NCBI RefSeq assembly: GCF_016722925.1
Contig: NZ_JAEQNC010000005.1
Span: 1 to 64,000, forward strand
DNA: 64,000 nt
Origin: Phytoamicus setariae
GTDB lineage: Bacteria; Pseudomonadota; Alphaproteobacteria; Rhizobiales; Rhizobiaceae
Direction: 5' to 3'
The translations under genes and the position numbers were made by a program. Under the pieces are notes generated by a model. The model did not search any database, was not told where the DNA came from, and saw only the letters and a list, made by a program, of their open reading frames with translations. Numbering within the stretch: position 1 is the stretch's first letter; every line of letters starts with the position of its first letter. Positions 36,110-58,772 of this stretch are shown here, one piece after another.

Positions 36110-36507
36110 CGACGCAAGCACCCGCACACGAAGACGCCCTCGAGGCGCATCACGCTCATAGCCACGGTCATGAAGCGGCTCATGGCACCATGAAGAGCTA
36201 CATGACGGGGTTCGTTCTTGCCGCAATCCTGACGGCCATTCCGTTCTGGCTGGTGATGGCCAAGGTCATCCCGAGCCCGATCGTCACGGCTGTGGTGATC
36301 ATGATCTTCGCCGCCATCCAGATTGTCGTCCATATGGTCTGCTTCCTGCACATGAACGCCAAGTCGGAAGGTGGCTGGACGCTGCTTGCCCTGATCTTCA
36401 CCTTGCTGATCGTGGCGATTGCGCTCTCGGGCTCGTTCTGGGTCATGCATCATATGAATGCAAACATGATGCCCATGACGCCGGAAATGATGAAGAACAT
36501 GCCCTGA
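36106..36507 (+). CDS. cyoD: Cytochrome o ubiquinol oxidase subunit IV
   Basis: 133 residues starting at the ATG overlapping the cyoC stop by 4 bases. Three membrane segments and VHMVCFLHMN are family-typical. The cytoplasmic N terminus is His-rich (HHAHSHGHEAAH) and the C terminus is Met-rich (MHHMNANMMPMTPEMMKNMP). This matches the Met/His tail on CyoA and hints at copper handling. No cyoE (haem O synthase) follows; it must be elsewhere. Confidence 0.94.
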   Translation: MTTQAPAHEDALEAHHAHSHGHEAAHGTMKSYMTGFVLAAILTAIPFWLVMAKVIPSPIVTAVVIMIFAAIQIVVHMVCFLHMNAKSEGGWTLLALIFTLLIVAIALSGSFWVMHHMNANMMPMTPEMMKNMP

Positions 36508-37721: not shown

Positions 37722-37803
37722 TTTTTTTAGTCCGACTAAAAAAATCTTGACATTTCACCGGAATGTCATTTGATTGAAGTAATACTAAAAAAGGTGTGGG
37801 AAC
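37722..37803 (+). promoter_or_regulatory. Stacked palindromes and promoter upstream of the XRE-cupin gene
   Basis: 37722-37744 is an almost perfect palindrome with 11-base arms TTTTTTTAGTC and GACTAAAAAAA around one C. Directly after it, TTGACA (37747-37752) is a good -35 element. It overlaps a second inverted repeat TGACATT-N7-AATGTCA (37748-37768). The arrangement suggests autoregulation by the downstream regulator. The -10 element is not clear. Confidence 0.7.
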
Positions 37804-38499
37804 GTGGCGCCAAATGGTAAAGCAGAAACGCATGAAAGCGAGCATCAGCTAGCGCCGCTCGGCGAGCGCTTGCGGGATCGCCGCAAGCAACTGAAGCTCA
37901 CCCTGCAGGACATCGCGGATCAGGCGGGGTTCTCGGTCGGGTTCATCTCGCAGATCGAGCGCGGCATCACCGTGCCTTCCCTGACTTCCCTGGTTTCCGT
38001 GTGCCGTGTCCTGAAAGTCGATGTCGGCTCGTTTTTCAAACAGCCGAAATCCGCCGCACCAGTGACGCGCGGCGACGGACGCGCGGTTTACGGCCTTGGC
38101 GCCGCCGGCAGGGACGTGACCTACGAGCGGCTTTCGGCCTCTTTTCCGGGAAACATCTTGCGCAGCACCCTCATTCACGAGCCACCGGGCTTCCGCAGCG
38201 AACCCATGTCGCATGAGGGCGAGGAGATCTTCTACATCGTCGCGGGAGAGCTGACGATCGAACTCGATGGAGAACCGCTGGTTCTGCATGCAGGCGACAC
38301 CGCACATTTCCCGTCGACCCGGACCCACGTGGTCTGGAACCACACCGTCAACCCGACGACGGTCTTCCACACCTGCACCATGGACGTGTTCGGCGACGCC
38401 GAACAATCTGGAGATGCCGATTCCAGCCTTGTCGTGACAAGAGCTGCAAACAGGCGCAGCGCGCCAAAACCTGTTGTAAACAAGGGGAACCCCAAATGA
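37804..38499 (+). CDS. XRE-family regulator with cupin sensor domain
   Basis: 231 residues, GTG start. The helix-turn-helix covers about 19-73 (LQDIADQAGFSVGFISQIERG). A cupin_2 domain spans about 113-200 with HEGEEIFYIVAGELTIEL and HAGDTAHFPSTRTHVVWN. Such regulators typically sense a small ligand and control adjacent catabolic genes. Its stop overlaps the start of the ABC binding protein gene (ATGA), so it is the first gene of the transport/hydantoinase operon and probably its regulator. Confidence 0.9.
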   Translation: MAPNGKAETHESEHQLAPLGERLRDRRKQLKLTLQDIADQAGFSVGFISQIERGITVPSLTSLVSVCRVLKVDVGSFFKQPKSAAPVTRGDGRAVYGLGAAGRDVTYERLSASFPGNILRSTLIHEPPGFRSEPMSHEGEEIFYIVAGELTIELDGEPLVLHAGDTAHFPSTRTHVVWNHTVNPTTVFHTCTMDVFGDAEQSGDADSSLVVTRAANRRSAPKPVVNKGNPK

Positions 38500-40082
38500 A
38501 AAAGAGTTTGAAGACAGTCGCCGCCGCTCTCTTGGCCGCGGCTTCGCTGCACAGCTACGCCGCTGCGGAAACCGTTCTCCGCCTCGATGAAGTGCCGGTT
38601 GGCGAACTCGACCCGGCCAAGGCATCTGACTATGCCGACTCCATCCTGATGTTCAACATCTATGACACGCTCGTCATTCCGAAGCAGGGCCAACCCGGCT
38701 ACGACGCATTCCTGGCATCCGGCTGGGAAACTGACGGCAAGACCTACACGTTCAAGCTTCGCAACGATGTGAAGTTCCAGAGCGGCAACGCCCTCACTGC
38801 TGATGACGTGGTGTTCTCCTACAACCGCATGATGGCGCTCGGCCAGGGCCTTTCCTACCTCTTCACCAATGTCGAGAAGGCGGAAGCCGTCGATCCGGCG
38901 ACCGTCAAGTTCACGCTCAAGGAAGTCTATGCGCCGTTCATTTCGGCGCTGACTCGCCTGCCGATCGTCGACAAGAAACTGGTGATGGAAAACCTCGCTG
39001 CCGGCGATGGCGAGATGAAGGACTGGGGACAGGCTTATCTGACCGGGCACGCCGCCGGCTCGGGCGCCTACAAGGTTGTCTCGCACAATCCGCAGGAAGA
39101 AACGGTCATGGCGAAGAACGCCGACTACTTCCTGAAGGTCCCGGCAAAGGCGCCGGATACCGTCCGCTTCCGCTACGGCCTGGAAGCGGCAACGGTCCGC
39201 ACGCTGATTTCTCAGGGCGAACACGACATTTCCTCGTCCTGGCTGCCGCCGGAAGTCCTGAAGTCGCTCGCCGCCGAAGGCGCCCAGCTGCTTGAGGAGA
39301 AGGGCACGACCGGCTTCTACATCAAGATGAACACGACCAAGGCCCCCTTCGACGACATCGAATGCCGCCTCGCGGTTTCCTACGCCTTCGATTACGAATC
39401 CGGCGTCAAGATGGTCGGCGTCACCGACACCGTCTCGCAGGGCAGCCCGGCGACCGGCGCGATCCCCGTCGGCATGCTCGGTGCGCTTCCTGCCGACAAG
39501 GCGATGAAGAAGGACATCGATAAGGCGAAGGAACATCTCGCCAAGTGCAAGTACAAGCCTGAAGACATGAAGGTCGAGCTTTCCTGGATCGGCGAAGTCC
39601 CGCTCGAAGAGCGTTTCGCCCTACTCATGCAAGCAAACTTCTCCGAGCTCGGCATTAAGGCCGAAGTCAAGAAGCTGCCCTGGGCTCTGTTCGTCGAACA
39701 GATCTCCAAGCCGGAGAACACACCTGCAATCTCGCAGGTCTTCGTCAACACCATGTCTGGCGATCCCGATACGCTGCTCTACGGCATGTATCACTCGACC
39801 GCCGGCGGCACCTGGATGTCTCCGGAATACCTGAAGGACAAGGAAGTCGACGCGCTGCTCGAAAAGGGCCGCACCACGACCGACGACGCCGAACGCGCCA
39901 AGATCTACACCGAGCTGAACGAACGCCTGCGCGCGCTGGCTCCGACGATCTTCGCACAGGACCAGACGGCCGTGTTCGCCGCCTCCAACCGCGTGTCGGT
40001 GCCGGCACTTTCCGATCCGTCCAAGGCATTCGCCCTTGCAGGTTTCGGCTTCAACTTCCGCCTGATGGAAATGAAGGACTAG
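38496..40082 (+). CDS. Peptide/opine-type ABC transporter substrate-binding protein
   Basis: 528 residues, periplasmic binding protein family 5 (SBP_bac_5). The signal peptide is MKKSLKTVAAALLAAASLHSY with cleavage near residue 24. The domain carries LRNDVKFQSGNALTADDVVFSYNR-type sequence usual for DppA/OppA relatives. It captures the substrate for the permeases encoded 220 bases downstream. The ligand may be a peptide, opine or hydantoin-like compound; the sequence does not decide. Confidence 0.92.
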   Translation: MKKSLKTVAAALLAAASLHSYAAAETVLRLDEVPVGELDPAKASDYADSILMFNIYDTLVIPKQGQPGYDAFLASGWETDGKTYTFKLRNDVKFQSGNALTADDVVFSYNRMMALGQGLSYLFTNVEKAEAVDPATVKFTLKEVYAPFISALTRLPIVDKKLVMENLAAGDGEMKDWGQAYLTGHAAGSGAYKVVSHNPQEETVMAKNADYFLKVPAKAPDTVRFRYGLEAATVRTLISQGEHDISSSWLPPEVLKSLAAEGAQLLEEKGTTGFYIKMNTTKAPFDDIECRLAVSYAFDYESGVKMVGVTDTVSQGSPATGAIPVGMLGALPADKAMKKDIDKAKEHLAKCKYKPEDMKVELSWIGEVPLEERFALLMQANFSELGIKAEVKKLPWALFVEQISKPENTPAISQVFVNTMSGDPDTLLYGMYHSTAGGTWMSPEYLKDKEVDALLEKGRTTTDDAERAKIYTELNERLRALAPTIFAQDQTAVFAASNRVSVPALSDPSKAFALAGFGFNFRLMEMKD

Positions 40083-40107
40083 GTGCAGTCGCCGGGCGAG
40101 TGAAAGG

Positions 40108-40260
40108 CCCCTCCCAATCCCTCCCCACAAGGGGGAGGGCTTAAGGCCGGGCACCCTCTCGCCTAGCAATGAAGCAGTGCCGTACATCCGAGCTTAGTGG
40201 TTCGGAAGAGACGGTTCGACAGGCTAAGCCCTCCCCCTTGCGGGGAGGGTTTGGGAGGGG
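40108..40260. repeat. Intergenic inverted repeat element
   Basis: Two 37-base arms in opposite orientation (40108-40144 and 40224-40260) match at about 34 of 37 positions, separated by 79 bases. Each arm itself contains a small hairpin of the form CCCTCCCC-ACAA-GGGGGAGGG. It lies in the gap between the binding-protein and permease genes. Similar CCCTCCCC/GGGGAGGG elements are scattered between genes in rhizobial genomes. It may limit downstream transcription or protect the upstream mRNA, making binding protein more abundant than permease. Confidence 0.85.
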
Positions 40261-40299
40261 TTTTCCTCCTGACTGACTTCGAAACGGAAAGAACCAGCC

Positions 40300-41325
40300 A
40301 TGTCTCCTTTAGTCCGCCTCCTTGCGAAGCGGTTGGGAACCTCTTTGATCGTATTGATCGGGGTTTCCCTACTGATCTTCGCGATTGCCCGGGTAATCCC
40401 CGGCGATCCCGCGCGCATCGCGCTCGGCCCGAATGCGACGGCCGAAGCCGTGGCTGCGCTCAGGGATAAGTTGCATCTCAACGATTCCTTCCTTGCCCAA
40501 TATGGCTACTTCGTCTCCGATCTGTTTCGCGGCGATCTCGGCATGTCGCTTTATACAAATCGCCCCGTGATGGCCGATATCACCCTGTTCCTTCCGGCAA
40601 CGCTGGAACTGGTCATCGTCTCCGGCATCATGATGGTGGCCATCGGCCTGCCGCTCGGAATTCTCTCGGCGCGCTACCGCGGCACCTGGGTCGATCACAC
40701 GATTCGGCTGGTCACGCTGCTCGGCGTATCGGCGCCCGCCTTCGTCTGGGCGGTGGTGCTGATGCTGGTTTTCTCCTATTTCATCAAGATCTTCCCGATT
40801 GCCGGGCGCATCTCCGATACGTTCAGCATCCAGAGCATCACCGGTTTCCTGCTGCTCGACACGCTGATCGCGGGCAATCTCAAGGCGTTCGGCAATGCCG
40901 TATGGCACATTATCCTGCCGGCTTTCGCGCTGGCTTTGTCCGGCATTGGTCAGGCCGCACGGCTGGTCCGCTCCAACATGGTCGAGACCTACGATAAGCC
41001 CTATATCGAGATGGCTGAAGCCTACGGTTTTCCGGAAAAGCGCATTGCCCGGCGTTATGCCTTCCGCCCCTCGCTCATCCCGTCGCTGACGATCATCGGA
41101 CTGGATTTCGCCGCCATGCTGGGCAGCGCCTTCCTGGTCGAAGCCGTCTATGCCTGGCCCGGCCTGTCGCGCTACGGCGTCGCCGTAATCCTGCGCAAGG
41201 ATCTCAACGCAATCGTCGGCACGGTGCTGATCATTTCCGCCATGTTCCTGATCGTGAACCTCATCGTCGACCTTCTCGTGTCGATCATCAATCCGCGCAT
41301 CCGTCTGTCGCAGAGGGCATCATGA
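40300..41325 (+). CDS. ABC transporter permease (DppB/OppB type)
   Basis: 341 residues, about six membrane helices. The N terminus LIVLIGVSLLIFAIARVIPGDPAR is typical of DppB. The ATPase-docking EAA region MAEAYGFPEKRIARRYAFR is at about 240-258. It partners the next gene, whose ATG overlaps its stop by 4 bases. Confidence 0.93.
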   Translation: MSPLVRLLAKRLGTSLIVLIGVSLLIFAIARVIPGDPARIALGPNATAEAVAALRDKLHLNDSFLAQYGYFVSDLFRGDLGMSLYTNRPVMADITLFLPATLELVIVSGIMMVAIGLPLGILSARYRGTWVDHTIRLVTLLGVSAPAFVWAVVLMLVFSYFIKIFPIAGRISDTFSIQSITGFLLLDTLIAGNLKAFGNAVWHIILPAFALALSGIGQAARLVRSNMVETYDKPYIEMAEAYGFPEKRIARRYAFRPSLIPSLTIIGLDFAAMLGSAFLVEAVYAWPGLSRYGVAVILRKDLNAIVGTVLIISAMFLIVNLIVDLLVSIINPRIRLSQRAS

Positions 41326-42155
41326 AGAAAACCCTCGTCGTGCTCACGCACAACCCGCTGTCGCTGATCGGCCTCATTCTCGTCGGTATCGTGGTGCTGT
41401 CCGCCATCTTCGCTGACTTCATCACGCCCTTCCCCGAGCATGTCGGTGCAGTGGTCGATTTCACCAATTTCAACAAGCCACCGCAATGGCCGAACATCTT
41501 CGGCACCGATCTTGTCGGCCGGGACCTGTTCACTCGCGTCGTCTATGCCTACCGGATTTCTCTGATCCTCGGCATCGTCGTGCTGGCCATCGCCGTGCCG
41601 ATTGGCGTCGCCATCGGGCTTGCTGCCGGCTATCTCGGCGGCTGGACGGAATATCTGCTGATGCGGATCACCGACGTCTTCCTGTCGATCCCGCCGCTGG
41701 TGCTGGCCATGTCGGTCATGGGTCTGCTGGAGCCGACGCTGACCAACGGCATGATCGCCGTGACCGCGATGTGGTGGCCCTGGTACACCCGTCTTGTCTA
41801 CAACCTCGTCCGCTCGGAAAAGGAAGAAGGCTACGTGCTGGCCGCCGAGGTCATCGGTGCGTCGAAGATGCACATCATGTTCCGCGAGATCCTGCCGAAC
41901 TGCGTGCCCTCGATCCTCACCAAGATGACGCTCGATTTCGGCTTCGTCATCCTGATCGCCTCCTCTCTGTCGTTCCTCGGCCTCGGCGTGCAACCGCCGA
42001 CACCGGATCTCGGTTCGATGGTGGCGGAAGGGGCGAAGTACCTGCCGGACAGCTGGTGGCTGACCGTGTTCCCCGGCCTCGCCATCCTGATCGCCGTCTT
42101 CGGCTTCAACCTGATCGGTGACGCACTGCGCGAAATCCTGGGGGGCGAGCAATGA
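41322..42155 (+). CDS. ABC transporter permease (DppC/OppC type)
   Basis: 277 residues, second membrane subunit. The motifs FGTDLVGRDLFTRVVYAYRISL (about 62-83) and the EAA loop AAEVIGASKMHIMFREILPN are typical. ATGA overlaps occur at both ends, tying it to the DppB-like gene and to the following ATPase. Confidence 0.94.
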   Translation: MKKTLVVLTHNPLSLIGLILVGIVVLSAIFADFITPFPEHVGAVVDFTNFNKPPQWPNIFGTDLVGRDLFTRVVYAYRISLILGIVVLAIAVPIGVAIGLAAGYLGGWTEYLLMRITDVFLSIPPLVLAMSVMGLLEPTLTNGMIAVTAMWWPWYTRLVYNLVRSEKEEGYVLAAEVIGASKMHIMFREILPNCVPSILTKMTLDFGFVILIASSLSFLGLGVQPPTPDLGSMVAEGAKYLPDSWWLTVFPGLAILIAVFGFNLIGDALREILGGEQ

Positions 42156-43042
42156 CCACACCCACACTCAAGATCGACAAACTCAAGCTTGGTTTCAAGA
42201 CCTGGTCCGGTACGTTGGAGGTCCTTCACGGCATCTCCCTGCACATCCAGAAGGGCGAGCGCGTCGCGCTTGTCGGCGAGTCCGGCTCCGGCAAGTCGGT
42301 GACGGCGCGCATCGTGCTCGGCATGCTGCAGCAGTTGAAGAGTGCGCGGATCTCCGGCACGGTCGAGTTCGAGGGAACCAACCTCGAAACCCTGAAGCCC
42401 GCGTCCCGCCACGCGCTGCGCGGCACCAAGATGTCGATGATATTCCAGGATCCGACGTCCTCGCTCAATCCGGTCTACACGATCTTCACCCTGTTCAAGG
42501 AAGTCCTAGAACGCGCCGAACCCGGCATCACGAACGAACTGGCACGCCAGAAGGCAATCACGGCACTTGCCGATGTCGCCATCAACGAACCGGAACGCGT
42601 GCTCGACTCCTATGCCTTCCAGCTTTCGGGCGGCATGAACCAGCGCGTGATGATCGCCATGGCGCTCGCCAACAATCCGGCGCTGCTACTGGCCGACGAG
42701 CCGGGCACCGCGCTCGATGTGACGGTGCAGGCCCAGACGCTGAAGTTGATGAGCGCGCTGGTCGAGAAGCACCAGACCTCGGTGCTGTTCATCTCGCACA
42801 ATCTCGGCGTCGTGCGCGAATTCGCCGACCGGGTCTATGTGATCTACAAGGGCAACATCGTCGAACAGGGTCCGACGGCGGACCTCTTCGCCAATCCGCA
42901 GCATCCCTACACGCGTGCGCTGCTGTCAGCCGTGCCGCGCATCACCGGCGGCGGCATTCCCGATCTCGACGACGATCCGAAACAGTTCCTCGCGCCGCTG
43001 GTGGCGCATCAGGGCTATAGCGAAAAGGAGCTCCTGGCATGA
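42152..43042 (+). CDS. ABC transporter ATP-binding protein (DppD/OppD type)
   Basis: 296 residues. Walker [10 protein letters not shown] is at about 43-51, the signature LSGGMNQR near 168, Walker [14 protein letters not shown] near 188, and the H-loop FISHNLGVV. It powers import with the DppF-like partner. Overlaps both neighbours by 4 bases. The C-terminal oligopeptide extension is short, without the usual Cys cluster. Confidence 0.94.
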
Positions 43043-43851
43043 GCACGCTTCTTTCCGTCGCCAACGTCTCCAAGCAGTTCGACGTCAATGGCCGCACCGT
43101 TCAGGCGCTGGACAACGTCTCCTTCGATGTAGCGAAGGGTGAATGTCTGGCAATCGTCGGCGAATCCGGCTCCGGTAAGTCGACCATCGCCAACATCATT
43201 CTCGGCATCTACGGGGCAACCTCCGGTCGTCTGGCTTTCAACGGCACCGAACTGCCCGCCAGGCGTATGCAGGAGCATCGGCGCGCGATCCAGCTGGTGC
43301 AGCAAAATCCGTTGTCGTCACTCAATCCGCGTCGCTCGATCGGCGCCTCCCTCCGGCTGGCGCTCGACGTGCACGATATCGGCGACAAATCCGGGCGTGC
43401 CGCGCGCACCGGCGAATTGCTGGAGGAAGTCGGGTTGCCAGCGGAATTCCGCACCCGCTCGCCCTCGGCACTCTCGGGCGGCCAGCGCCAGCGCGTGGCC
43501 ATTGCGCGTGCGCTCGCCTGCCAGTCCGAGCTGGTGGTTCTCGACGAGCCGACCTCGGCGCTCGACGTCCTCGTCCAGGCGCGTGTCCTCAGGCTTCTCA
43601 AGGACCTGAAAGACAAGCGCGGCCTGACCTACGTCTTCATCACCCACGACCTTTCGGTGGTGCGCAACATCGCCGATCGCGTCGCCGTCTTCGAAAAGGG
43701 CAAGCTGGTCGAACTCGGCGATACGCAAAACATCTTCGCCAACCCCCAACACGTCTATACGCGCCGGCTGATCGGCGCAGTCCCTGTCGTGAGCCAGGAG
43801 GAAGCTATCCTCCGCGACAGGATCATGGAGCAAGAGAATGGAAATGCCTGA
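43039..43851 (+). CDS. ABC transporter ATP-binding protein (DppF/OppF type)
   Basis: 270 residues. Walker [10 protein letters not shown] is at about 38-46, Q-loop QLVQQNPLSSLNPRRS, signature LSGGQRQRVAIARAL, Walker B VVLDEPTSALDV, H-loop FITHDLSVV. The second motor subunit. Its end overlaps the GAF gene by 14 bases. Confidence 0.94.
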   Translation: MSTLLSVANVSKQFDVNGRTVQALDNVSFDVAKGECLAIVGESGSGKSTIANIILGIYGATSGRLAFNGTELPARRMQEHRRAIQLVQQNPLSSLNPRRSIGASLRLALDVHDIGDKSGRAARTGELLEEVGLPAEFRTRSPSALSGGQRQRVAIARALACQSELVVLDEPTSALDVLVQARVLRLLKDLKDKRGLTYVFITHDLSVVRNIADRVAVFEKGKLVELGDTQNIFANPQHVYTRRLIGAVPVVSQEEAILRDRIMEQENGNA

Positions 43852-44344
43852 ATACGCAAAATTCGTCGCCGCCGTTGCTGAAGCCGGCGGACAGCCCGAA
43901 AAAGCCTATGCCGCGCTCGAAGCCCTGACCAAGGCGCTCGTCGGCGTAAAGCTGTTCACCATCATGACGTCAGATACGACCGACAAGCTGTCCGAGCGCA
44001 CCTATTCCAACATGCCGGACGTCTACCCGGTTTCGGGGACCAAGCCTTACAACGAGACGCATTGGTCCGAGATCACCCTGAACCAGAAGAAGACATTCGT
44101 TGCCAACACGATCGAAGAGATCGCCGAGGTCTTCGACGACCACGAGCTGATCAAGTCGCTTGGATGCGAATCCGTCATCAATGTGCCGATCATCGTCGAT
44201 GGCGAAGTCATCGGCACGCTGAACTGCCTGCATGACAGGGGGTTCTACACCGAGGAGAAGGTGCGTGCCGCCGAAGCCCTGAAGCTGCCGGGCGCGGTCT
44301 GCATGCTGTTGCACGAAAAGAAGCGCAAAGGGAGTGAAGCATGA
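43838..44344 (+). CDS. GAF-domain protein of the hydantoinase operon
   Basis: 168 residues forming essentially one GAF domain (about 25-160), with VGVKLFTIM near the start and SVINVPIIVDGEVIGTLNCLH near the end. No output domain is attached. It starts inside the dppF-like gene and ends with a 4-base overlap onto hyuA, so it is a fixed member of the operon. It may sense a pathway compound or be an enzyme. Three Cys (110, 130, 155) do not clearly match the free-methionine-sulfoxide reductase pattern. Function unknown. Confidence 0.8.
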   Translation: MEMPEYAKFVAAVAEAGGQPEKAYAALEALTKALVGVKLFTIMTSDTTDKLSERTYSNMPDVYPVSGTKPYNETHWSEITLNQKKTFVANTIEEIAEVFDDHELIKSLGCESVINVPIIVDGEVIGTLNCLHDRGFYTEEKVRAAEALKLPGAVCMLLHEKKRKGSEA

Positions 44345-46413
44345 GCGGAAAGACCATTCGCGTGGCCACCGACGTTGGTGGCACGTTTACCGACCTCGTA
44401 TGTTTCGAGACAGATCATCAGACCGGCGTTTCGCGGATTACCACCGCGAAATCCGACACGACGCCGCCCAACTTCGAGCAGGGCGTACTTAATGTACTGG
44501 AGAAGGGCGGCGTCGATCCCAAGTCTGTCGATTTCTTGGCCCACGGCACCACGGTCGTCATCAATGCGCTGACCGAACGCAAGGGCGTAAAGGTCGGCTT
44601 GATCACCACCGAAGGCTTCCGCGACAGCCTCGAGATCGCCCGCGGTAACCGGCCGGATTTCTTCAATCTGCACTACAAGAAGCCGGAGCCTTTCGTGCCG
44701 CGCTACCTGCGCTGCGAACTTCCGGGCCGCTTCAACTACCACGGCGAGGAAATGAAGCCGCTGGATCTTTCGGGCCTGCCCGCGATCCTCGATGCCTACC
44801 GCGCCGATGGCGTGGAAGCGATTGCCGTCTGCTTCCTGCATTCCTACGCCAATCCGAGCCACGAGCAGGCAACGATTGCCGAAATCAAGCGCCTGTGGCC
44901 TGAAATCGCCACGGTCGCGTCGCACCAGATCACCCGCGAGTGGCGTGAGTACGAGCGGACCAACACCGCAGTCATGTCGGCCTATGTGCAGCCGACCGCC
45001 GAGCGTTATCTCACGCGGTTGAACGAGGGGCTCGCAGCCAAGGGCTTCGATGGCAACCTGTTCATCATGCAGTCGAACTGCGGCGTGGATTCGCTGGATT
45101 CCGTCAAAAAGATCCCGATCACCATGGTCGAATCCGGCCCGGCCTCGGGCTTCTGGGGCGCTGCCGAACTCGGCAAGCTGATCGGCGAAAAGAACGTGCT
45201 GGCGCTCGACATCGGCGGCACCACCGCCAAGTGCTCGCTGATCGAGGACGGCAAGGTCAAGATCATGACCGACTACTGGATCGAGCGCGACCGCACGTCG
45301 GCCGGCTACCCGATCATGGTGCCGGTCGTCGATCTCGTCGAAATCGGCAATGGCGGCGGCTCGATCGCCTGGGTCGATGACTTCGGCAAGCTGCATGTCG
45401 GCCCGAAATCCGCAGGCGCCATGCCCGGCCCGGCCGCCTACGGCCGTGGCGGCACCAGCGCCACCACCACCGACGCCAATCTCTGGCTCGGCCGCATCAA
45501 CCGCGATTATTTCTGCGGCGGCTCCGTCGTCGCCGACATGGCCGCGACCGAGAAGGCATTGACCGATGTCGGCGCGAAACTCGGCACATCGGCCAGCGAC
45601 GTGGCCCGCGGCATCATCCGCATTGCCAACAACAACATGGTCAATGCGCTCAAGCTCGTGTCGCTCAACCGCGGCCATGACCCGCGCGACTTCACGCTCG
45701 TTGCTTTCGGCGGTGGCGGCGCTATGCATGCTGCAGCGCTGGGACAGGAACTGGGCGTCAAGAAGGTCGTCATCCCGGCTGGCGCTGCGGTTTTCTCAGC
45801 CTGGGGCATGATGATGTCCGACCTGCGCCGCGACTACTTCGTCACCAAGCTCGCCGACCTCAATGCCGGCGCAGCGGTTGCCATCGAAGCCCTGTTTGCC
45901 GAAACCGAAGCCCTGGCGCTCAGCCAGTTCGGCGAGGAAGGCGTGGACAAGGCCAAGGTCAAATTCCTGCGCTACGGCAAGTTCCGCTACCAGAACCAGG
46001 AACACACGACCGAAGTGCTGATCGAAGGCGTGATAACGGATGCCAGCCTTGCCGGCATCGAGACTGCCTTCCACGAAACCTACGAACGCGAATACACCTA
46101 TCGCCTCGATGCACCCGTGGAATTGGTCGGCATCCATCTCGTCGCCTCCGCCGAGGTTGGCAAGCTGAAGATGCAGGAACACCCGCTCGGCTCGACGCCG
46201 GCATCTGCCGCGCTGAAGGGCGAACGCGACGTCGACTATGCGTTGGAAGGCGTTCACACGGCCCAGATCTACAACGGCGAGAAGCTCGAGCCCGGGATGA
46301 ACTTCACCGGCCCGGCGATCATCGAAGATCCGGGCACGACGATCGTCATTCATCCCGGAAATCGCGTCGAGGTCGACGGCTTCGGCAACATCCATATCCA
46401 TCTCAAGGCTTGA
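44341..46413 (+). CDS. hyuA: Hydantoinase/oxoprolinase subunit A (HyuA family)
   Basis: 690 residues of the ATP-dependent hydantoinase A / 5-oxoprolinase / acetone carboxylase beta family with an ASKHA-type nucleotide fold. Motifs are DVGGTFTD (11-18), HGTTVVINALTER (68-80), LDIGGTTAKCSLI (near 290-302) and FGGGGAMHAAALG (near 457-469). With HyuB it is expected to couple ATP hydrolysis to opening a cyclic amide such as N-methylhydantoin, 5-oxoproline or a lactam. The substrate is not determined by sequence. Confidence 0.92.
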   Translation: MSGKTIRVATDVGGTFTDLVCFETDHQTGVSRITTAKSDTTPPNFEQGVLNVLEKGGVDPKSVDFLAHGTTVVINALTERKGVKVGLITTEGFRDSLEIARGNRPDFFNLHYKKPEPFVPRYLRCELPGRFNYHGEEMKPLDLSGLPAILDAYRADGVEAIAVCFLHSYANPSHEQATIAEIKRLWPEIATVASHQITREWREYERTNTAVMSAYVQPTAERYLTRLNEGLAAKGFDGNLFIMQSNCGVDSLDSVKKIPITMVESGPASGFWGAAELGKLIGEKNVLALDIGGTTAKCSLIEDGKVKIMTDYWIERDRTSAGYPIMVPVVDLVEIGNGGGSIAWVDDFGKLHVGPKSAGAMPGPAAYGRGGTSATTTDANLWLGRINRDYFCGGSVVADMAATEKALTDVGAKLGTSASDVARGIIRIANNNMVNALKLVSLNRGHDPRDFTLVAFGGGGAMHAAALGQELGVKKVVIPAGAAVFSAWGMMMSDLRRDYFVTKLADLNAGAAVAIEALFAETEALALSQFGEEGVDKAKVKFLRYGKFRYQNQEHTTEVLIEGVITDASLAGIETAFHETYEREYTYRLDAPVELVGIHLVASAEVGKLKMQEHPLGSTPASAALKGERDVDYALEGVHTAQIYNGEKLEPGMNFTGPAIIEDPGTTIVIHPGNRVEVDGFGNIHIHLKA

Positions 46414-46425
46414 GGAGTGCGAGAC

Positions 46426-48087
46426 ATGACTTCAGTTTCCCACGACCCGATCACGCTCGAAATCATCCAGAACTCGCTGCAGGCGACGGCTGATGAAATG
46501 TTTGCCGCCATGCGCAAGACGGCTATGAGCTCGATCATCTACGAAGTGCTCGACATGGGCACCGGCATTACCGACGCGGCAGGCCGCCTCGCCTCCTCTG
46601 GCGCCGGCATCCCCGGCTTCATCGGCGTGCTCGACAAATCCGTGAAGGTGCTGCTGGAGAAGTTCGACAAGCCCGGCCAGATCGAGCCGGGCGACGTCTT
46701 CATCACCAACGACCCCTATTATGGCGGTGTGACGCACCTCAACGACCTGGTGGTATGCATGCCCGTCTTCGTTGGCGGCAAGCTGATCGCCTGGACGGCC
46801 AACATCGCCCACAACTCCGATGTCGGCGGCAAATCACCCGGCTCGCTGTCGGCCGATGCGACCGAAATCTTCCAGGAAGGCCTGCGCCTACCAGCCATCA
46901 AGATGATTTCGAAGGGCGAGGCAATCCCCGGCATCTTCGACATCATCACCGTCAACTCGCGCATGCCCGACTTCCTCGAGGGCGACCTCTGGGCGGCCAT
47001 CGCATCGGTGCGCATCGGCGCCAAGCGCCTGGCCGAGCTGGCTGAAAAGTACACCGTGGCCACCTTCGAGGCCGCGATGGACAGTTTCATGAACCACGGT
47101 GAAAAGATCGCGGTCGCCGAGCTCGCCAAGCTGCCGCATGGCAACTTCGAGCTGACCGAAGAGCAGGACGACGGTCGCTTCTTCAACGTCAAAATCAAGA
47201 TCTCGGCCGACGAATTCGTCATCGACCTCCGGGACAATCCCGATCAGGACGCGGGCCCATCGAATGCCGGTCATGACGACACGCTGGTCAGCATGCAGGT
47301 GATCTTCAAGGCGCTGACCGACCCGACCTCACCGGCCAATGAAGGCTCCTTCCGGCCGCTCAAGGTGCTGACCAAGGAAGGCACCTGCTTCCACGCCAAA
47401 GAACCGGCAGCCGTCGGCTTCTATTATGAAATCGGCATCCGCGCCTATGACCTTGTCTGGCGCTGCCTTGCGCCACACATGCCGGAAAAGCTGCCAGCCG
47501 GTCATTTCTCGTCGATCGCCGGCACCTTTATCGGTGGCATCCATCCGGACACCGGCCGCCAATACACGATCATCGAGCCGCAGATCGGCGGCTGGGGTGC
47601 ATCGGCAGGCAGCGACGGCAACAGTGCGATCTTCTCGGGCGTACATGGGGAAACCTATAACTGCCCGGCGGAAATCTCCGAAGCCCGCAACGGCCTGTTC
47701 GTCGACCGCATGGAGCTCAACACCGAGCCGGGCGGCGAAGGCAAGTGGACCGGTGGTCATGGCATCAAGCTCGACTACCGCATCCGTCGCGACAACTCGT
47801 TCCTGACGCTCGGCTATACCCGCTCGCGAATCCTGCCCTGGTCGCTTGACGGCGGCAATGAAGGCTCCGCCAACTACGCGCTCGTCATGCGCAAGGACGG
47901 CACCAGCGAGCGCTATGCATTTGCCTCGGGTATCCGCGTCGACACCGATGACGTCATCCGCGTCATCACCGGTGCCGGCGGCGGCATCGGCAACCCGAAG
48001 GATCGCGATCCGGCACTCGTGCAGGAAGATATTCGCAACGGCCTGATCACCGCCGAGCGCGCCCGCGAGGTGTACGGCGTCTCCTGA
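46426..48087 (+). CDS. hyuB: Hydantoinase/oxoprolinase subunit B (HyuB family)
   Basis: 553 residues from ATG 46426, with GGAG 9 bases upstream; a GTG at 46417 is less likely. Characteristic HyuB N terminus DPITLEIIQNSLQATADEMF, then TNDPYYGGVTHLNDLVV, and the C-terminal Gly-rich TGAGGGIGNPKDRDP. It forms the hydrolytic complex with HyuA and lies 12 bases behind it. Confidence 0.93.
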   Translation: MTSVSHDPITLEIIQNSLQATADEMFAAMRKTAMSSIIYEVLDMGTGITDAAGRLASSGAGIPGFIGVLDKSVKVLLEKFDKPGQIEPGDVFITNDPYYGGVTHLNDLVVCMPVFVGGKLIAWTANIAHNSDVGGKSPGSLSADATEIFQEGLRLPAIKMISKGEAIPGIFDIITVNSRMPDFLEGDLWAAIASVRIGAKRLAELAEKYTVATFEAAMDSFMNHGEKIAVAELAKLPHGNFELTEEQDDGRFFNVKIKISADEFVIDLRDNPDQDAGPSNAGHDDTLVSMQVIFKALTDPTSPANEGSFRPLKVLTKEGTCFHAKEPAAVGFYYEIGIRAYDLVWRCLAPHMPEKLPAGHFSSIAGTFIGGIHPDTGRQYTIIEPQIGGWGASAGSDGNSAIFSGVHGETYNCPAEISEARNGLFVDRMELNTEPGGEGKWTGGHGIKLDYRIRRDNSFLTLGYTRSRILPWSLDGGNEGSANYALVMRKDGTSERYAFASGIRVDTDDVIRVITGAGGGIGNPKDRDPALVQEDIRNGLITAERAREVYGVS

Positions 48088-48134
48088 GACGCAGTCACCG
48101 ACGCTCCACGACCTCCGTTATCCCGTTTTGACAA

Positions 48135-48158
48135 GGTGGCATCGCTTGCGATGCCACC
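48135..48158 (+). other. Hairpin between hyuB and the oxidoreductase gene
   Basis: A perfect 10-bp stem (GGTGGCATCG / CGATGCCACC) with a CTTG tetraloop in the 133-base gap after hyuB. There is no T-run, so it is likely a processing, stabilising or partial-termination hairpin within the operon. Confidence 0.6.
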
Positions 48159-48220
48159 GACGGGGTGACTTTGCCTGCACTTGGCCAACAAGACATATCA
48201 AATAGGGAGGAATATTTGAA

Positions 48221-49237
48221 ATGCCTAGGATCGTTCACGTCGAAAAGCTCGGCGGCCCTGAGTTTCTGACTATCAATGATGCGGCGCTCGCAGAGCCAGG
48301 CCCCGGCGAAGTCCGTCTGAAAGTGGATGCCTTCGCGCTCAACCGTGCCGATATCCTCTACATCACCGGCTCGCACTACACCGAGCTCAAGCTCCCCTCG
48401 CGCATCGGCTCAGAGGCCGCCGGCATCGTCGACAGCGTTGGTCCGGGCGTCGATCACATCAAGGTCGGCGACCGGGTTTCCACAGTCCCCTTCTTCACCA
48501 CCCAGTCTGAACGGCATGGCGTTCAGGGCGAATTCGCCATCGTCCCCGCCGGGTACGTCGCTCCCTGGCCCGAGGGCTTCACCGCCACCGAGGCATGCTC
48601 GGTCTGGATGCAATACCTGACTGCCTATTTTGCACTCGTCACCGTAGGAGAGCTTTCCATCGGTAAGTCGGTGCTGATCGCGGCTGCGGCCTCCAGTGCT
48701 GGCGTCGGCGCGATCCAGATGGCCAAGGCGCTCGGTGCCAACGTTATCGCAACCACCCGCCAGGAACAGAAAATTGCCTTTTTGAAAAGCGTCGGCGCCG
48801 ATCATGTGATCGTCACCAAGAAAGGCGTGGACTTCTCGCTCGAAATCCGCGCTGCGACACAAGGCAGGGGGGTAGACGTCGTCTTCGATCCGGTCAGCGG
48901 CCGCTTCGCCGAAGATTACTGCCACGGGCTCAACTGGGCCGCTAAGATCTTGAACTACGGCCAACTCGACGACGAAGACCCGATCTTTCCGATCCTGCCG
49001 ATAACCCGCGTCAAGGGGACGATCCATCCCTATTCGATGTTCAACCATGTGATGTTCCCTGACGAACTCGCCGAGGGTATCGCTTTCGTCATGCGGCAGA
49101 TCTCCGAAGGCCGGTTCCGGCCGGTCATCGACCACATCTTCCAGTTCGATCAGACCATGGATGCCTACAACCATATGCTCGGCAACAGCCAGTGTGGAAA
49201 AATCGTCGTCCGGGTAACCGACGATGCGGGAAACTGA
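48221..49237 (+). CDS. Zinc-less quinone-oxidoreductase-like dehydrogenase
   Basis: 338 residues of the medium-chain dehydrogenase superfamily. The N-terminal GroES-like domain (about 25-120) lacks zinc ligands; the NAD(P)-binding domain begins at VLIAAAASSAGVGAIQMAKALGA (about 148-170). Quinone oxidoreductase (QOR) is the nearest class, and the natural substrate is unknown. Its position between hyuB and a racemase gene suggests it modifies an intermediate of the same pathway. GGAGG precedes the ATG. Confidence 0.85.
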   Translation: MPRIVHVEKLGGPEFLTINDAALAEPGPGEVRLKVDAFALNRADILYITGSHYTELKLPSRIGSEAAGIVDSVGPGVDHIKVGDRVSTVPFFTTQSERHGVQGEFAIVPAGYVAPWPEGFTATEACSVWMQYLTAYFALVTVGELSIGKSVLIAAAASSAGVGAIQMAKALGANVIATTRQEQKIAFLKSVGADHVIVTKKGVDFSLEIRAATQGRGVDVVFDPVSGRFAEDYCHGLNWAAKILNYGQLDDEDPIFPILPITRVKGTIHPYSMFNHVMFPDELAEGIAFVMRQISEGRFRPVIDHIFQFDQTMDAYNHMLGNSQCGKIVVRVTDDAGN

Positions 49238-49250
49238 GGAGAAACGACGG

Positions 49251-50066
49251 ATGACTGACAAGAAGCCATTGAAGATCATGTACCTCAACCCGGTCGGCGA
49301 TGATGCTGTCGTCGATCCGATCTTTGCCGACATGGCGCGCGATCACAAGCTGCCGGGAACGGAAGTGCATGTGACGGCGCTGCCCAAGGAGCACTATGCC
49401 TTCTCGCATATCGAGTTCCGCACCTACGAAGCTATGGTGACACGCGGGATCCTGCGCGCCGTCCGCGCCGCCGCCGAAGAAGGCTTCGACGCGCTGGCGA
49501 TCGGCTGCTTCTACGACACTGCACTACATGATGCCCGCGAGATCTCGGGCGACATGATCATCACCGGCCCCTGCGTCGCAGCCTGCGAAATCGCAGCCAG
49601 CCTGTCGAACCGCTTCGGCATCATCGTCGGCCGCCGCAAGTGGATCCACCAGATGCAGGCAACCGTGCATTCCTATGGCCACGCCGAACGCCTCGCCGGC
49701 TTTTACGATGTCGGCCTGGGCGTCGACGATTTCCAGAAGGACCATGCCGAGACCAACCGCCGTCTGCTGGCTGCCGGTCGCAAGGCGGTTGAGGAAGACG
49801 GCGCGGAATCGCTGATCCTCGGCTGCACGATGGAGATCGGCTTTTACAAGGAAATCGAGAAGGAACTCGGCGTGCCGGTGATCGACCCGTCGATCGCAGC
49901 GCTGAAGCGGGCGGAATATGCCGCCATTCTCAAGCGTCAGGCCGGCTGGGTGCCGAGCCGGAAGGGTTCTTGCGAATCTCCTCCCGAGGCCGAACTTGCG
50001 GCCTTCAACGTTTTTGCCGGCGACGAACCCGTGTTCGGCAGCCGCATCGTAATTCCCGCCAACTGA
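49251..50066 (+). CDS. Hydantoin/Asp-Glu racemase family protein
   Basis: 271 residues from ATG 49251, with GAGGA about 10 bases upstream. Two candidate catalytic cysteines lie in IGCFYDTA (Cys86) and LGCTMEIGF (Cys192), the two-base arrangement of cofactor-independent racemases such as hydantoin and allantoin racemases. It would make both enantiomers of a substrate available to the hydantoinase. The C-terminal ~30 residues are longer than usual. Confidence 0.82.
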   Translation: MTDKKPLKIMYLNPVGDDAVVDPIFADMARDHKLPGTEVHVTALPKEHYAFSHIEFRTYEAMVTRGILRAVRAAAEEGFDALAIGCFYDTALHDAREISGDMIITGPCVAACEIAASLSNRFGIIVGRRKWIHQMQATVHSYGHAERLAGFYDVGLGVDDFQKDHAETNRRLLAAGRKAVEEDGAESLILGCTMEIGFYKEIEKELGVPVIDPSIAALKRAEYAAILKRQAGWVPSRKGSCESPPEAELAAFNVFAGDEPVFGSRIVIPAN

Positions 50067-50081
50067 TCAAGGATGATTTCC

Positions 50082-51185
50082 ATGTCCGAACAAACCACAG
50101 CCCGCCTCGCCGCACTGCGCAAGCGCATGGCAGACACCGGCACCGGCCTTGTCGCCATCGCGCCGGGCTCGCATATGGACTGGGTGTTGGGCTTTCATCC
50201 GCATCCGGATGAGCGTCCGTGCCTGTTGCTGATTGCTGCCGAGAAGGAAGCCTTCCTGATGCCGGCGCTGAATGCTGAAGGTAGTCGTGAATTCACAGCG
50301 ATCGAATTCTTCAACTGGGCTGACGACGTGGGCCCAGTTGCGGCACTGAATGACGCGCTTGCCGGTATTGACGCAACCGCCCCCGGCCTTGTGGCGCTCG
50401 ATGAAACCATGCGCGCCGATTTCGCACTGCTGTTGCTCGACGCCCTGCCCGCCGACACCAAGCGCGATTTCACACCCAACACGCTCGGCGGTTTGCGGAT
50501 GCGCAAGGACAGCGCCGAATACGCAAAGCTCAAAATGAATGCCGGCATCGCCGACCGCGCAATTCAGGCGGCCTTTGCCACGATCAAGCCGGGCATGACC
50601 GAGAACCAGGTCGCAGCCGAAATCCGCGCGCACTTCACGTCCGAAGGTGCCGAACCGCAGTTCTGGATCGTTGGCGCCGGCAGCAACGGCGCTTTTCCGC
50701 ATCATTCCGCGAGCGAGCGCGTCGTCCAGGAAGGCGATGCAGTCGTGATCGACATCGGCGGCCGCAAGCAGGGTTTTCCCTCCGACATCACCCGCATGGC
50801 GGTCATCGGCCTGCCGCCGGAAGGCTATGGCGAGATCCACACGATCGTCGAAAAGGCCGTGCAGGCCGCGCTCAAGGCAGCCCGTCCGGGTGTGCTGGCC
50901 AAGGAGGTCGATGCCGCCGCGCGTAAAGTCATTACCGATGCCGGCTATGGCGAGTATTTCGTCCACCGCACCGGCCATGGCATGGGCATCGACGGCCATG
51001 AGCCGCCCTATATCACAGCAACTTCAGAAACCGTGCTGGAAGAAGGCATGGTGTTCTCCATCGAGCCCGGCATTTACCTACCTGGACGTTTCGGCATCCG
51101 CCTGGAGGATATCGTCATCCTGCGCGAGGACGGCCCGGAGATTCTCTCGGATCTGCCGCGCGACGCGCATTTCGTCCAGGTCTGA
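50082..51185 (+). CDS. M24-family metallopeptidase (Xaa-Pro peptidase-like)
   Basis: 367 residues from ATG 50082, with AAGGA 8 bases upstream. The N-terminal creatinase-like domain covers about 5-130 and the pita-bread catalytic domain about 145-360. All five metal ligands are present: Asp224, Asp235, His299, Glu328, Glu342. That favours a true dinuclear-metal peptidase over creatinase, which lacks the metals. As last gene of the operon it could cleave a dipeptide or N-carbamoyl-type product. Confidence 0.9.
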   Translation: MSEQTTARLAALRKRMADTGTGLVAIAPGSHMDWVLGFHPHPDERPCLLLIAAEKEAFLMPALNAEGSREFTAIEFFNWADDVGPVAALNDALAGIDATAPGLVALDETMRADFALLLLDALPADTKRDFTPNTLGGLRMRKDSAEYAKLKMNAGIADRAIQAAFATIKPGMTENQVAAEIRAHFTSEGAEPQFWIVGAGSNGAFPHHSASERVVQEGDAVVIDIGGRKQGFPSDITRMAVIGLPPEGYGEIHTIVEKAVQAALKAARPGVLAKEVDAAARKVITDAGYGEYFVHRTGHGMGIDGHEPPYITATSETVLEEGMVFSIEPGIYLPGRFGIRLEDIVILREDGPEILSDLPRDAHFVQV

Positions 51186-51243: not shown

Positions 51244-52509
51244 CTATTCAAGGACCGACGGGGCGTCGCTCAAGGTCTCGTCGAGGTCCTCGACCTTTTT
51301 CGACTTCTTCTTCTGTTCAAGAATCGACACCGGCGTCGATACGGCCGTACCGGCGACCTTGCCGATATTTCCGGCGGTACCAGCAACGACAGCTGTGATG
51401 CCCTCGCCAAGCGTGACATTGGAATCGGTCAGCGTCTGGCCGTTGACGAGGCGCTTGCCAATGAGCTGGACGATTTCCGGGCTCTCGGCAAACTTGCCGT
51501 GGTTGAGCCGGTCCTCGGTCTTGACCTGGGTGAGATCGACGATCTGGATGCCTGCCTTTTCGAGATCGCTCCGGTAAGGTTGCGTGGAGGCATCGATCGC
51601 ACCCAGCCGCATCACGTCGCCCGAAATGAACCTGGACAGCGCAAGCGCCTTGTCGTCCTGAGAGACGAATACCGTGAAACTCGGCCGCTTGCCCTCGATT
51701 TCCGTCCATTGCTTGGCAAAAACGTCGATATCGATATCCGGCGACGCAAGAATGACATTCTGGATTTTCGGCGAAATCGCCCCATCACGGATCGACATCT
51801 GTCTGAGCGCTTCCATCGCCAGCCATGTGCCCATGGAATGGGCGAGCACCGTGATGTCGGTAATCTTCTTGTCCTGCGACAACGCGCGAAGGGCCTGTTC
51901 GAGTGCCGTGCGGGAAAAGTTGGTACTTTCCTTGTCGTAGTTGTAGTCGAACACGCTGGCCCGCGACGGCCAGGTGAACAGGATGGGCGTCACGCTCGCA
52001 CCGGAGTCATGAACGATCTGCGCGTAGCGAAAGACGGCATCCTCGTAGGTATTGTTGAAGCCGTGGACGAACACCATGGCGTGGCCGTTGCGGCTATGCT
52101 GGTTGATCCAGCTCAGGGCTTCGGTGCGGCTGGTCAGCGGTTGGACGCGAACTACCGAAAAGTCGGTCTTCGGATCCGGAGGCAGCTTCTTCGGCCATTG
52201 CACCGTGCCGGCCTCGCGCTTTGGCGGGATCGAAATCGACACCTCCGTCACCGACGGTGAGGCGCTTCGTTCACCGGAGAACAATTGTCCGGGGTCCTGC
52301 GACCTCTGCCGGCTGGTGACCACCAGCATGTCGACCACAGCCTCGGCTCCTGACGTGTCGCCTGCAACCGGCGACATGACCCCTTGCGGACGGCCGCCGC
52401 AGGACTGAAGCAACAACGCTGCTGCCAGAACCAAGACGGACAGACATTTACTGCTGCCACTTGCGTGGACCCGTCGAACACCACCCCAAACAGAAAACAT
52501 GCCGCCCAT
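51244..52509 (-). CDS. Alpha/beta-hydrolase lipoprotein (DUF900-like)
   Basis: 421 residues from ATG 52509, preceded by AAGGGTGGA; the frame is open further (to 52710) but upstream codons look non-genuine. The signal segment ends LLLQSC (Cys37), a lipobox. The hydrolase domain has VFVHGFNNTYEDAV (about 147-160) and the nucleophile elbow AHSMG (Ser225), resembling DUF900 esterases. The C-terminal 90 residues include a Gly/Ala/Val stretch and a Lys-rich end. It is likely anchored in the envelope; substrate unknown. Confidence 0.8.
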   Translation of the reverse strand: MGGMFSVWGGVRRVHASGSSKCLSVLVLAAALLLQSCGGRPQGVMSPVAGDTSGAEAVVDMLVVTSRQRSQDPGQLFSGERSASPSVTEVSISIPPKREAGTVQWPKKLPPDPKTDFSVVRVQPLTSRTEALSWINQHSRNGHAMVFVHGFNNTYEDAVFRYAQIVHDSGASVTPILFTWPSRASVFDYNYDKESTNFSRTALEQALRALSQDKKITDITVLAHSMGTWLAMEALRQMSIRDGAISPKIQNVILASPDIDIDVFAKQWTEIEGKRPSFTVFVSQDDKALALSRFISGDVMRLGAIDASTQPYRSDLEKAGIQIVDLTQVKTEDRLNHGKFAESPEIVQLIGKRLVNGQTLTDSNVTLGEGITAVVAGTAGNIGKVAGTAVSTPVSILEQKKKSKKVEDLDETLSDAPSVLE

Positions 52510-52799
52510 TCCACCCTTCGAGCACACCTGCTCCTTAGGCGAATAGCATATCCAAGCCTCGAAGTAACCCGCAACTGCCGCAGATCCTTGGCGCATTTCT
52601 TGGCCGCCCGGGATTTGACGGGCATTTCGTCGAAGCAAAAGGTGAAGGTTTAGAGCCTGCAAAGCCGCACAGCCCCAATGTGGCAGCAGGCGCAACGGAA
52701 TGGTCGACATGATCAGGAATGCCCGCTCAGACTGGCCCTGAGGGAGGAGATTTGGCCGAGCCGATTGGCACCTTCATTCACACTGCGGCTGGTCTGATG

Positions 52800-58697: not shown

Positions 58698-58772
58698 TGG
58701 TGCTGCTAGAGAGATTTGAACTCTCGGCCTCTCCCTTACCAAGGGAGTGCTCTACCCCTGAGCTATAGCAGC
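58698..58772 (-). tRNA. tRNA-Thr(GGT)
   Basis: The minus strand folds into a complete cloverleaf: acceptor GCTGCTA/TAGCAGC, D-arm GCTC/GAGC, anticodon stem CTCCC/GGGAG with loop TTGGTAA (anticodon GGT, Thr), and T-arm GAGAG/CTCTC with loop TTCAAAT. The 3' CCA is encoded. Its 3' end faces the arsenic region, so it is a possible integration site. Confidence 0.97.

Follow-up and report, generated by a model that had tools for sequence, protein, structure and literature searches.

A conserved rhizobial HyuA/HyuB operon proposed to serve cyclic dipeptide catabolism

Cyclic dipeptides (2,5-diketopiperazines, DKPs) are abundant bioactive natural compounds. Here we describe an operon of Phytoamicus setariae at positions 37804-51185 of a 64,000-nucleotide stretch of contig NZ_JAEQNC010000005.1 (the window). 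In the window's list of open reading frames (ORFs) it comprises 12 consecutive plus-strand genes, for an XRE-cupin regulator, an SBP_bac_5 solute-binding protein (SBP), two permeases, two ATPases, a GAF-domain protein, HyuA, HyuB, a QOR-like oxidoreductase, a racemase and an M24 metallopeptidase. The operon is real and well conserved. On balance, and with modest confidence, we read it as a dedicated, self-regulated system for cyclic dipeptide catabolism, with cyclo(Xaa-Pro) rings as the likeliest substrates; every reaction and substrate given below is one that we infer.

Parts of the operon resemble several described systems. Among racemases, OpaE, from oxepinamide biosynthesis, epimerises a nonribosomal peptide derivative (excerpts of PMC12661438). 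Its family also includes NozR, an in vivo isomerase of the true DKP cyclo-Trp-Trp whose cysteine mutants failed (excerpts of PMC10156859). The window racemase shares with both an Asp/Glu racemase fold and two predicted catalytic cysteines and, in part, the hydrophobic pocket residues. OpaE and NozR are biosynthetic, however, whereas the window protein sits in a degradation-type operon. With the caprolactamase CapAB and the ATP-dependent lactamase (hydantoinase/oxoprolinase) family, HyuA and HyuB share the two-subunit design, the ATP-site Asp residues, a GxxPGP motif and an Asp-His-Asp-His metal site. Unlike CapAB, they have racemase, peptidase and importer genes beside them, with a second beta subunit (HyuB2) in 41 of 67 relatives, and they miss the equivalog cut-offs. 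The importer has the composition of Dpp (SBP_bac_5 protein, two permeases, two ATPases) but a binding protein lacking the amine-anchoring Asp. Plasmid pGEOTH01 of Parageobacillus thermoglucosidasius carries an XRE-cupin gene and a racemase (44% identical), HyuA (53%), HyuB (43%) and M24 protein (44% over 292 residues) like those of the window. It differs in having an MFS importer instead of an ABC one and in carrying pruA and a proline dehydrogenase gene; its function is an annotation-based suggestion of a proline/hydroxyproline role in a passage of PMC4593210.

Full-text searches of open-licence papers on DKPs or cyclic dipeptides with hydantoinase/oxoprolinase or degradation found none that assigns this gene set; an earlier note on this DNA knew of no described pathway with exactly these genes. 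Two prior hints exist, one in PMC4593210, on proline/hydroxyproline, and one in PMC6061476, on cyclic dipeptide hydrolases; a passage of the latter speculates, giving no data, that some '5-oxoprolinase' genes are cyclic dipeptide hydrolase genes. Elsewhere, cyclodipeptide-oxidase clusters are described as enriched in DUF917 genes, PF01177 racemases and transporters of dipeptide type (passages of PMC11055893). DKP-degrading strains including a Rhizobium have also been reported, in passages that name no responsible gene.

Racemase, HyuA/HyuB and binding protein

The putative cyclic dipeptide epimerase (49224..50066; PF01177) is a two-cysteine racemase, as the earlier note had it, with an invariant Cys95/Cys201 pair (52/52). 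OpaE was its best PDB match by sequence (106.7 bits), ahead of Klebsiella allantoin racemase (74.4 bits). A Foldseek search with the AF2 model (pLDDT 83.2) likewise gave OpaE first (E 7.9e-19), followed by allantoin racemases (E 4.6e-13 and weaker). According to passages of PMC12661438, pocket residues separate OpaE-like, NozR-like and allantoin/hydantoin racemases. The last carry N/D, T/S and T at pocket positions, with Asn/Asp at KpAllR position 12 in 100% and Thr/Ser at 118, and the OpaE-like pattern consists of hydrophobic HP1/HP2 residues (V/I/L, aromatic, V/I/L, G/P). The window pocket (V24, V29, V135, G136) has the OpaE-type residue at three of the four positions. Across 52 aligned racemases, window included, V/L/I occupies position 24 in 49, V/I position 135 in 52 and G position 136 in 51. 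None has N/D at 24 or T/S at 135, the hydantoin/allantoin signature. The allantoin-type paralogue from the same genome (L099), compared as a control with two further own paralogues left out, reads N-M-T-T, like Klebsiella. The Klebsiella protein also pairs with this paralogue in a small tree (100/98), in which OpaE joins the window and G400 racemases at 89/88, on a very long branch. NozR was compared through its published residue pattern. The racemase thus differs in type from hydantoin/allantoin racemases, which argues against hydantoins, counted among the candidate substrates in the earlier note; we consider a cyclic dipeptide a more likely substrate of the epimerase than a hydantoin. A second Novosphingobium racemase (L088:21132-24567), with the NozR-like pattern V, I, T, V, lies beside DUF917 and a HyuA-like gene and is perhaps part of another cyclic dipeptide system.

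HyuA (44341..46413; PF05378, PF01968, PF19278) is the putative ATP-using alpha subunit of the proposed cyclic dipeptide hydrolase and HyuB (46417..48087; PF02538) its putative metal-binding beta subunit. Metal- and ATP-site residues of this family are CapB Asp41, His99, Asp102 and His124, and CapA Asp11, Asp295 and GxxPGP (passages of PMC8453981). The corresponding HyuB tetrad, matched by motif as D46, H107, D110 and H132, is invariant (81/81), with equivalents in 45/45 HyuB2 proteins. HyuA D11 and D290 are invariant in 72/72, D290 corresponding by motif to CapA Asp295, and GxxPGP lies at residues 359-364 (GAMPGP in the window). Judged by these alignments, HyuA and HyuB retain the predicted catalytic residues of ATP-dependent lactamases. 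They scored 514.1 and 218.7 bits against the caprolactamase models NF050156/NF050157, below the cut-offs of 1000 each, and matched no other lactamase model in NCBIfam. A related HyuA-HyuB pair, its HyuB 62.5% identical, is found in Mycetohabitans (L091:9886-21994) upstream of a gene of 7.4 kb that is annotated as an amino acid adenylation domain protein.

In DppA, D436 holds the amino group of the dipeptide and R383 the carboxyl group (excerpts of PMC12136057). The Asp436 amine anchor is absent from the SBP (38496..40082; PF00496) and its cluster relatives: among 60 proteins the column holds V in 42, M in 16, and Q and T in one each. It holds T in Thermus, N in Ketogulonicigenium and S in Natrononativus. 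Absence of this anchor fits a ligand without a free amino group, such as a cyclic one. The R383 loop is missing from all SBPs compared, so the carboxylate anchor says nothing on the ligand. Four poorly related SBPs in the loci have D (L082), T, Y and N in the D436 column. The column is also D in cluster SBPs of Phyllobacterium (L108:4443-12101) and Marinovum (L109:2397-10092), whose clusters combine M24 and importer genes with an XRE or putative regulator, plus GAF in Phyllobacterium, and have no HyuAB or racemase annotated within the stretches. These SBPs retain the Asp that would anchor a dipeptide, as though they served linear peptides.

Peptidase and proline genes

Residues D227, D238, H302, E331 and E345 of the Xaa-Pro dipeptidase-like M24 metallopeptidase (50073..51185; PF00557 and PF01321), which we take to be its five metal ligands, are invariant in 62/62, as are H211 and H309, presumably the active-site histidines. 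The nearest proteins are of PepQ and aminopeptidase type; the best NCBIfam model, PepQ, was matched at 189 bits against an equivalog cut-off of 630.

Ten plasmid stretches with HyuAB and/or racemase were viewed. A window-type racemase lies beside HyuA/HyuB in eight of them, from Roseateles, Parageobacillus, Thermus, Arthrobacter, Novosphingobium, Natrononativus, Ketogulonicigenium and Paenarthrobacter, and the Roseateles cluster is close to the rhizobial ones by its genes. No racemase or M24 is annotated nearby in the Mycetohabitans and A. vitis stretches. Seven of the eight clusters have a dipeptidase-type gene, M24 in five and an amidohydrolase in two; none was found within the Natrononativus stretch. 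In Paenarthrobacter and Arthrobacter the unrelated amidohydrolase (79% identical between the two) replaces M24. The Paenarthrobacter protein is closest to 3mkv (E 1.2e-90) and to 3feq/3n2c, the latter labelled 'putative amidohydrolase | prolidase', and has Xaa-Pro dipeptidase as its best NCBIfam model (229 bits, cut-off 500). The paper describing these structures, going by a reference list entry, is reportedly titled 'two novel prolidases from cog1228'. A further variant occurs in G344, where an AMP_N+M24 protein of aminopeptidase-P type stands between HyuB and the racemase.

Proline catabolism genes adjoin the cluster in two plasmids: pruA and proline dehydrogenase directly follow M24 in Parageobacillus, and PutA lies beside the amidohydrolase in Paenarthrobacter. 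Together with the peptidase swaps, these neighbours favour a cyclic dipeptide with proline over 5-oxoproline, simple lactams and opines. In the P. setariae genome a single Pro_dh match was found, within an open frame of 1255 aa on a different contig. As background, 167 of 72,556 plasmid records match the Parageobacillus proline dehydrogenase; a PutA query matched 3167 plasmid records, a number confounded by other aldehyde dehydrogenases. Rhodococcus L121, with HyuAB, an amidohydrolase and divergent pruA/proline dehydrogenase genes about 3 kb past HyuA (ABC genes between), was discounted as support, being of another HyuAB subtype with no racemase annotated. Haloarchaeal M24 neighbourhoods were viewed and revealed nothing clear.

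Conservation, layout and regulation

Loci were fetched from a genome collection by HyuB alone, and the best 80 of 192 relatives were taken as the closest. Downstream genes were counted in 67 loci with at least 4.5 kb of flank and upstream genes in 68 with at least 9 kb; these counts miss genes split over frames. A gene-neighbourhood survey, the kind of check proposed in the earlier note, showed conserved co-occurrence: 32 of 61 loci with enough flank on both sides hold the SBP, both permeases, both ATPases, HyuA, HyuB, racemase and M24. One gene order is kept in 66 of the 67 loci having at least six core genes, and the cluster genes co-occur more than expected by chance. Upstream, HyuA was found in 68/68, XRE and GAF in 62/68 each, each ATPase in 60/68, the permeases in 59 and 58 and the SBP in 58/68; downstream, M24 was found in 53/67, the racemase in 42/67 and HyuB2 in 41/67. 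The core thus consists of XRE, importer, GAF, HyuA, HyuB, racemase and M24, often with HyuB2. The QOR-like (PIG3-type) MDR oxidoreductase (48221..49237; PF08240/PF00107), listed as part of the set in the earlier note, falls outside it as an accessory gene because its orthologue occurs in just 2/67 loci. A distant QOR-like gene (35-45% identical, plus strand) is present in 10.

HyuB2 occurs in 47 of the 80 loci (for example L048:13641-15227), after M24 in 43/47, and shares 48-59% identity with the HyuB of the window. Many relatives thus have one alpha and two beta genes, and HyuB2 is missing from the window. Two other PF02538 genes of the P. setariae genome were rejected as HyuB2: their identities are 32% and 28% with HyuB, and 32% and 27% with HyuB2. 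Thermus likewise has two HyuB genes (L086:25165-26739). Greedy clustering of the other flanking ORFs gave nine groups, each found in 4-6 loci; one of the nine is HyuA itself. Loci L008:7662-13539 and L034:4763-6452 carry a tandem pair of racemase genes, and the HyuA of L008 is spread over two overlapping open frames. At L038:11530-12001 two partial racemase matches alone are left between HyuB and M24, as if the racemase had been lost. An apparent HyuB-racemase fusion in L119 (838-aa open frame) was ruled out, HyuB lying in another frame.

A racemase profile search (E 1e-50), in which at most 6-7 candidates were scored per genome and counts are therefore lower bounds, found matches in at least 4 of 398 phylum genomes, at least 3 of 369 of another class and at least 3 of 385 of this class. 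After removal of the P. setariae genome and overlaps, at least seven other genomes had a match. HyuAB adjoins the racemase in five of the seven (G237, G344, G321, G1004, G967), and an M24-family gene is present in three (G321, G967, G344). A scan of viral contigs for further racemase loci gave 16 pattern matches, 0 of them confirmed.

All genes named in the earlier note are present on the plus strand in the order it stated, and Pfam (10 proteins) and NCBIfam (both ATPases) confirm the families; the note counted eleven genes where its own list holds 12. The XRE HTH and cupin_2 regulator (37804..38499; PF01381, PF07883) precedes the SBP, after which come a DppB/OppB-type permease (40300..41325; PF00528 and PF19300) and a DppC/OppC-type permease (41322..42155; PF00528 and PF12911). 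The DppD/OppD-like ATPase (42152..43042) has YejF, NikD, OppD and dipeptide ATPase models as its best NCBIfam matches, the best 25 of 187 all below cut-offs. For the DppF/OppF-like ATPase (43039..43851) the best models are of dipeptide/DppF type, with the best 25 of 191 again below cut-offs. A stand-alone GAF-domain protein (43838..44344; PF13185/PF01590) precedes HyuA. The 4-14-base overlaps noted before hold in size but not in number: with the starts used, seven rather than six of the 11 junctions overlap, by 4, 4, 4, 4, 14, 4 and 14 bases in gene order, the 14-base overlaps hinging on start codon choice. Gaps measure 217 bases (SBP-permease 1), 3 (HyuA-HyuB), 133 (HyuB-QOR) and 6 (racemase-M24). 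Directly upstream of the operon are cytochrome oxidase-type genes, judged by eye (33480-36507); downstream, a minus-strand frame (51244-52710) is the next long ORF. The sole Rfam match in the window is a minus-strand tRNA gene (58701-58772).

Upstream of xre, conservation reveals a palindromic candidate operator, TTTAGTCCGACTAAA (37726..37740), a putative XRE-cupin binding site. The form TTTAGTNNNACTAAA occurs with at most one mismatch in 38 and at most two in 52 of 63 upstream regions (window included), compared with 0 and 0.9% in mononucleotide-shuffled controls. It has one match in the window, and for the extended form TTTTAGYNNNRCTAAAA the 5.6-Mb genome contains a single exact match. Ten relatives have two TTTTAGYNNNRCTAAAA copies about 50 bases apart. 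The position upstream of xre and the single genomic TTTTAGYNNNRCTAAAA fit a regulator dedicated to the operon, and we propose that the XRE-cupin protein would regulate its own operon via the TTTAGTNNNACTAAA operator. A 9-bp inverted repeat (37748-37768) was rejected as operator: it is exact in one of the 63 regions, the window's own, and the others have 4-7 mismatches, like shuffles. Promoter and terminator scans gave chance-level results. The GAF protein (AF2 model pLDDT 93.7) has GAF domains as nearest folds, the best Foldseek match being the cAMP-bound, cAMP-binding GAF domain of Lcd1 (E 9.8e-8); a sequence search of the PDB up to E 0.1 gave no match. Free-methionine sulfoxide reductase was considered as its identity, and none is so named among the best 50 Foldseek matches. 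Cys110 and Cys130 are each conserved in 63/65 and may have a redox or ligand role. We suspect that the GAF protein is a small-molecule sensor or co-regulator.

Substrate and proposed route

Hydantoin metabolism would account for the gene set if HyuAB opened a 5-substituted hydantoin, the racemase were a hydantoin racemase and M24 an unusual N-carbamoyl amino acid hydrolase or creatinase-like enzyme. N-methylhydantoinase is indeed the best PDB match of HyuA/HyuB, the racemase belongs to the PF01177 'Asp/Glu/Hydantoin racemase' family, and DUF917 with a HyuA-like gene lies nearby in Arthrobacter, Paenarthrobacter, Parageobacillus and Novosphingobium. We nevertheless hold this doubtful: the diagnostic Asn/Asp and Thr are absent from the racemase, no carbamoylase is annotated in the eight plasmid clusters (L084 has an isochorismatase-family hydrolase upstream on the other strand), and the proline genes are left unexplained. 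M24 moreover keeps all its metal ligands, unlike creatinase. An opine- or lactam-type pathway is, if anything, a little less credible. Agropinic acid use, known from the Ti plasmid literature, combines an ABC importer with HyuAB-like lactam opening, the same overall design of SBP_bac_5 importer and HyuAB, and AgaA (6hlx) is among the PDB matches of the binding protein (E 1.2e-24). AgaA is only the sixth best, however, the racemase and dipeptidase would have no obvious role, and the caprolactamase cut-offs are missed (514 and 219 of 1000 bits). It is very improbable that HyuA/HyuB form an ATP-dependent carboxylase of the acetone/acetophenone type with unrelated passenger genes around it. Homology to those carboxylases is real, but the acetophenone carboxylase models score far below cut-offs (HyuA 296/1500 and 187/1250 bits, HyuB 94.7/1500), no third carboxylase subunit is found among the 12 genes, and conservation of the neighbours is strong. 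The substrate could instead be a different amide linked to proline or hydroxyproline, for example a pyroglutamyl-proline-type lactam or a cyclic peptide fragment with hydroxyproline, which HyuAB would open and the peptidase would cut; we consider this reading unlikely, though less so than hydantoins. It shares the proline-catabolism neighbours and agrees with the proline/hydroxyproline capture suggested for the Parageobacillus cluster in PMC4593210, as excerpted. The lactamase models discussed above do not favour it, however, and the epimerase subtype that the racemase resembles acts on peptide-derived rings (excerpts of PMC12661438 and PMC10156859).

Several observations weigh against cyclic dipeptide catabolism as well. 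M24 is absent from 14 and the racemase from 25 of the 67 loci, and the fetched stretches of two of the seven racemase genomes (G400, G428) contain no HyuAB. The aromatic residue of the OpaE signature at position 29 is absent from all 52 aligned racemases, the window's included; distant HyuAB-linked racemases have it in 8/8 and all four signature residues in 7/8. SBP_bac_5 proteins bind many ligands, and the 'Xaa-Pro' names of M24 are generic, all 15 listed models, including ectoine hydrolase and DddP, being below cut-offs. Proline genes adjoin just two of the eight plasmid clusters, the 80 loci gave no proline dehydrogenase match among their ORFs, and none of four other plasmid proline dehydrogenase regions viewed, Rhodococcus L121 included, has this cluster. 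No HyuAB is annotated in the Priestia and Tsukamurella regions, and the unannotated PutA region of Arthrobacter StoSoilB13 has no HyuA, HyuB or racemase match. Avidin-like domains, for which this reading gives no account, lie near the cluster in two unrelated lineages (L103:5678-7654; L088:5945-6736); in G344 a single open frame encodes such a domain together with a pepsin-type protease domain.

Under the cyclic dipeptide reading, the SBP_bac_5/ABC importer would take up the neutral ring, and the epimerase would invert the alpha carbon of D-containing rings via Cys95/Cys201. HyuA may then activate a ring amide with ATP and HyuB open the ring at its metal site, giving linear Xaa-Pro. M24 would cut this to an amino acid and proline, the latter entering ordinary proline catabolism. 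The XRE-cupin protein would control the operon, the GAF protein probably acting as a small-molecule sensor and QOR as an accessory. The scheme of the earlier note, in which a compound is imported and racemised, its ring opened with ATP and the product cut by the peptidase, remains the best reading; the note's cyclic amide or peptide-like compound can be narrowed, most probably to a proline-containing cyclic dipeptide.

We suggest, more tentatively, that this may be the first complete dedicated cyclic dipeptide pathway: an importer, a DKP epimerase, a DKP hydrolase driven by ATP (HyuA plus one or two HyuB subunits), a proline-specific dipeptidase and one regulator. It would be found in Alphaproteobacteria and, rearranged, in Thermus and Parageobacillus, with an unrelated prolidase replacing the peptidase in two Arthrobacter-group plasmids. 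If true, the operon supplies candidate genes for a degradation route with few known enzymes, the reading explains why ATP is spent, and the racemase, HyuA/HyuB, peptidase, binding protein and operator form a ready test set.

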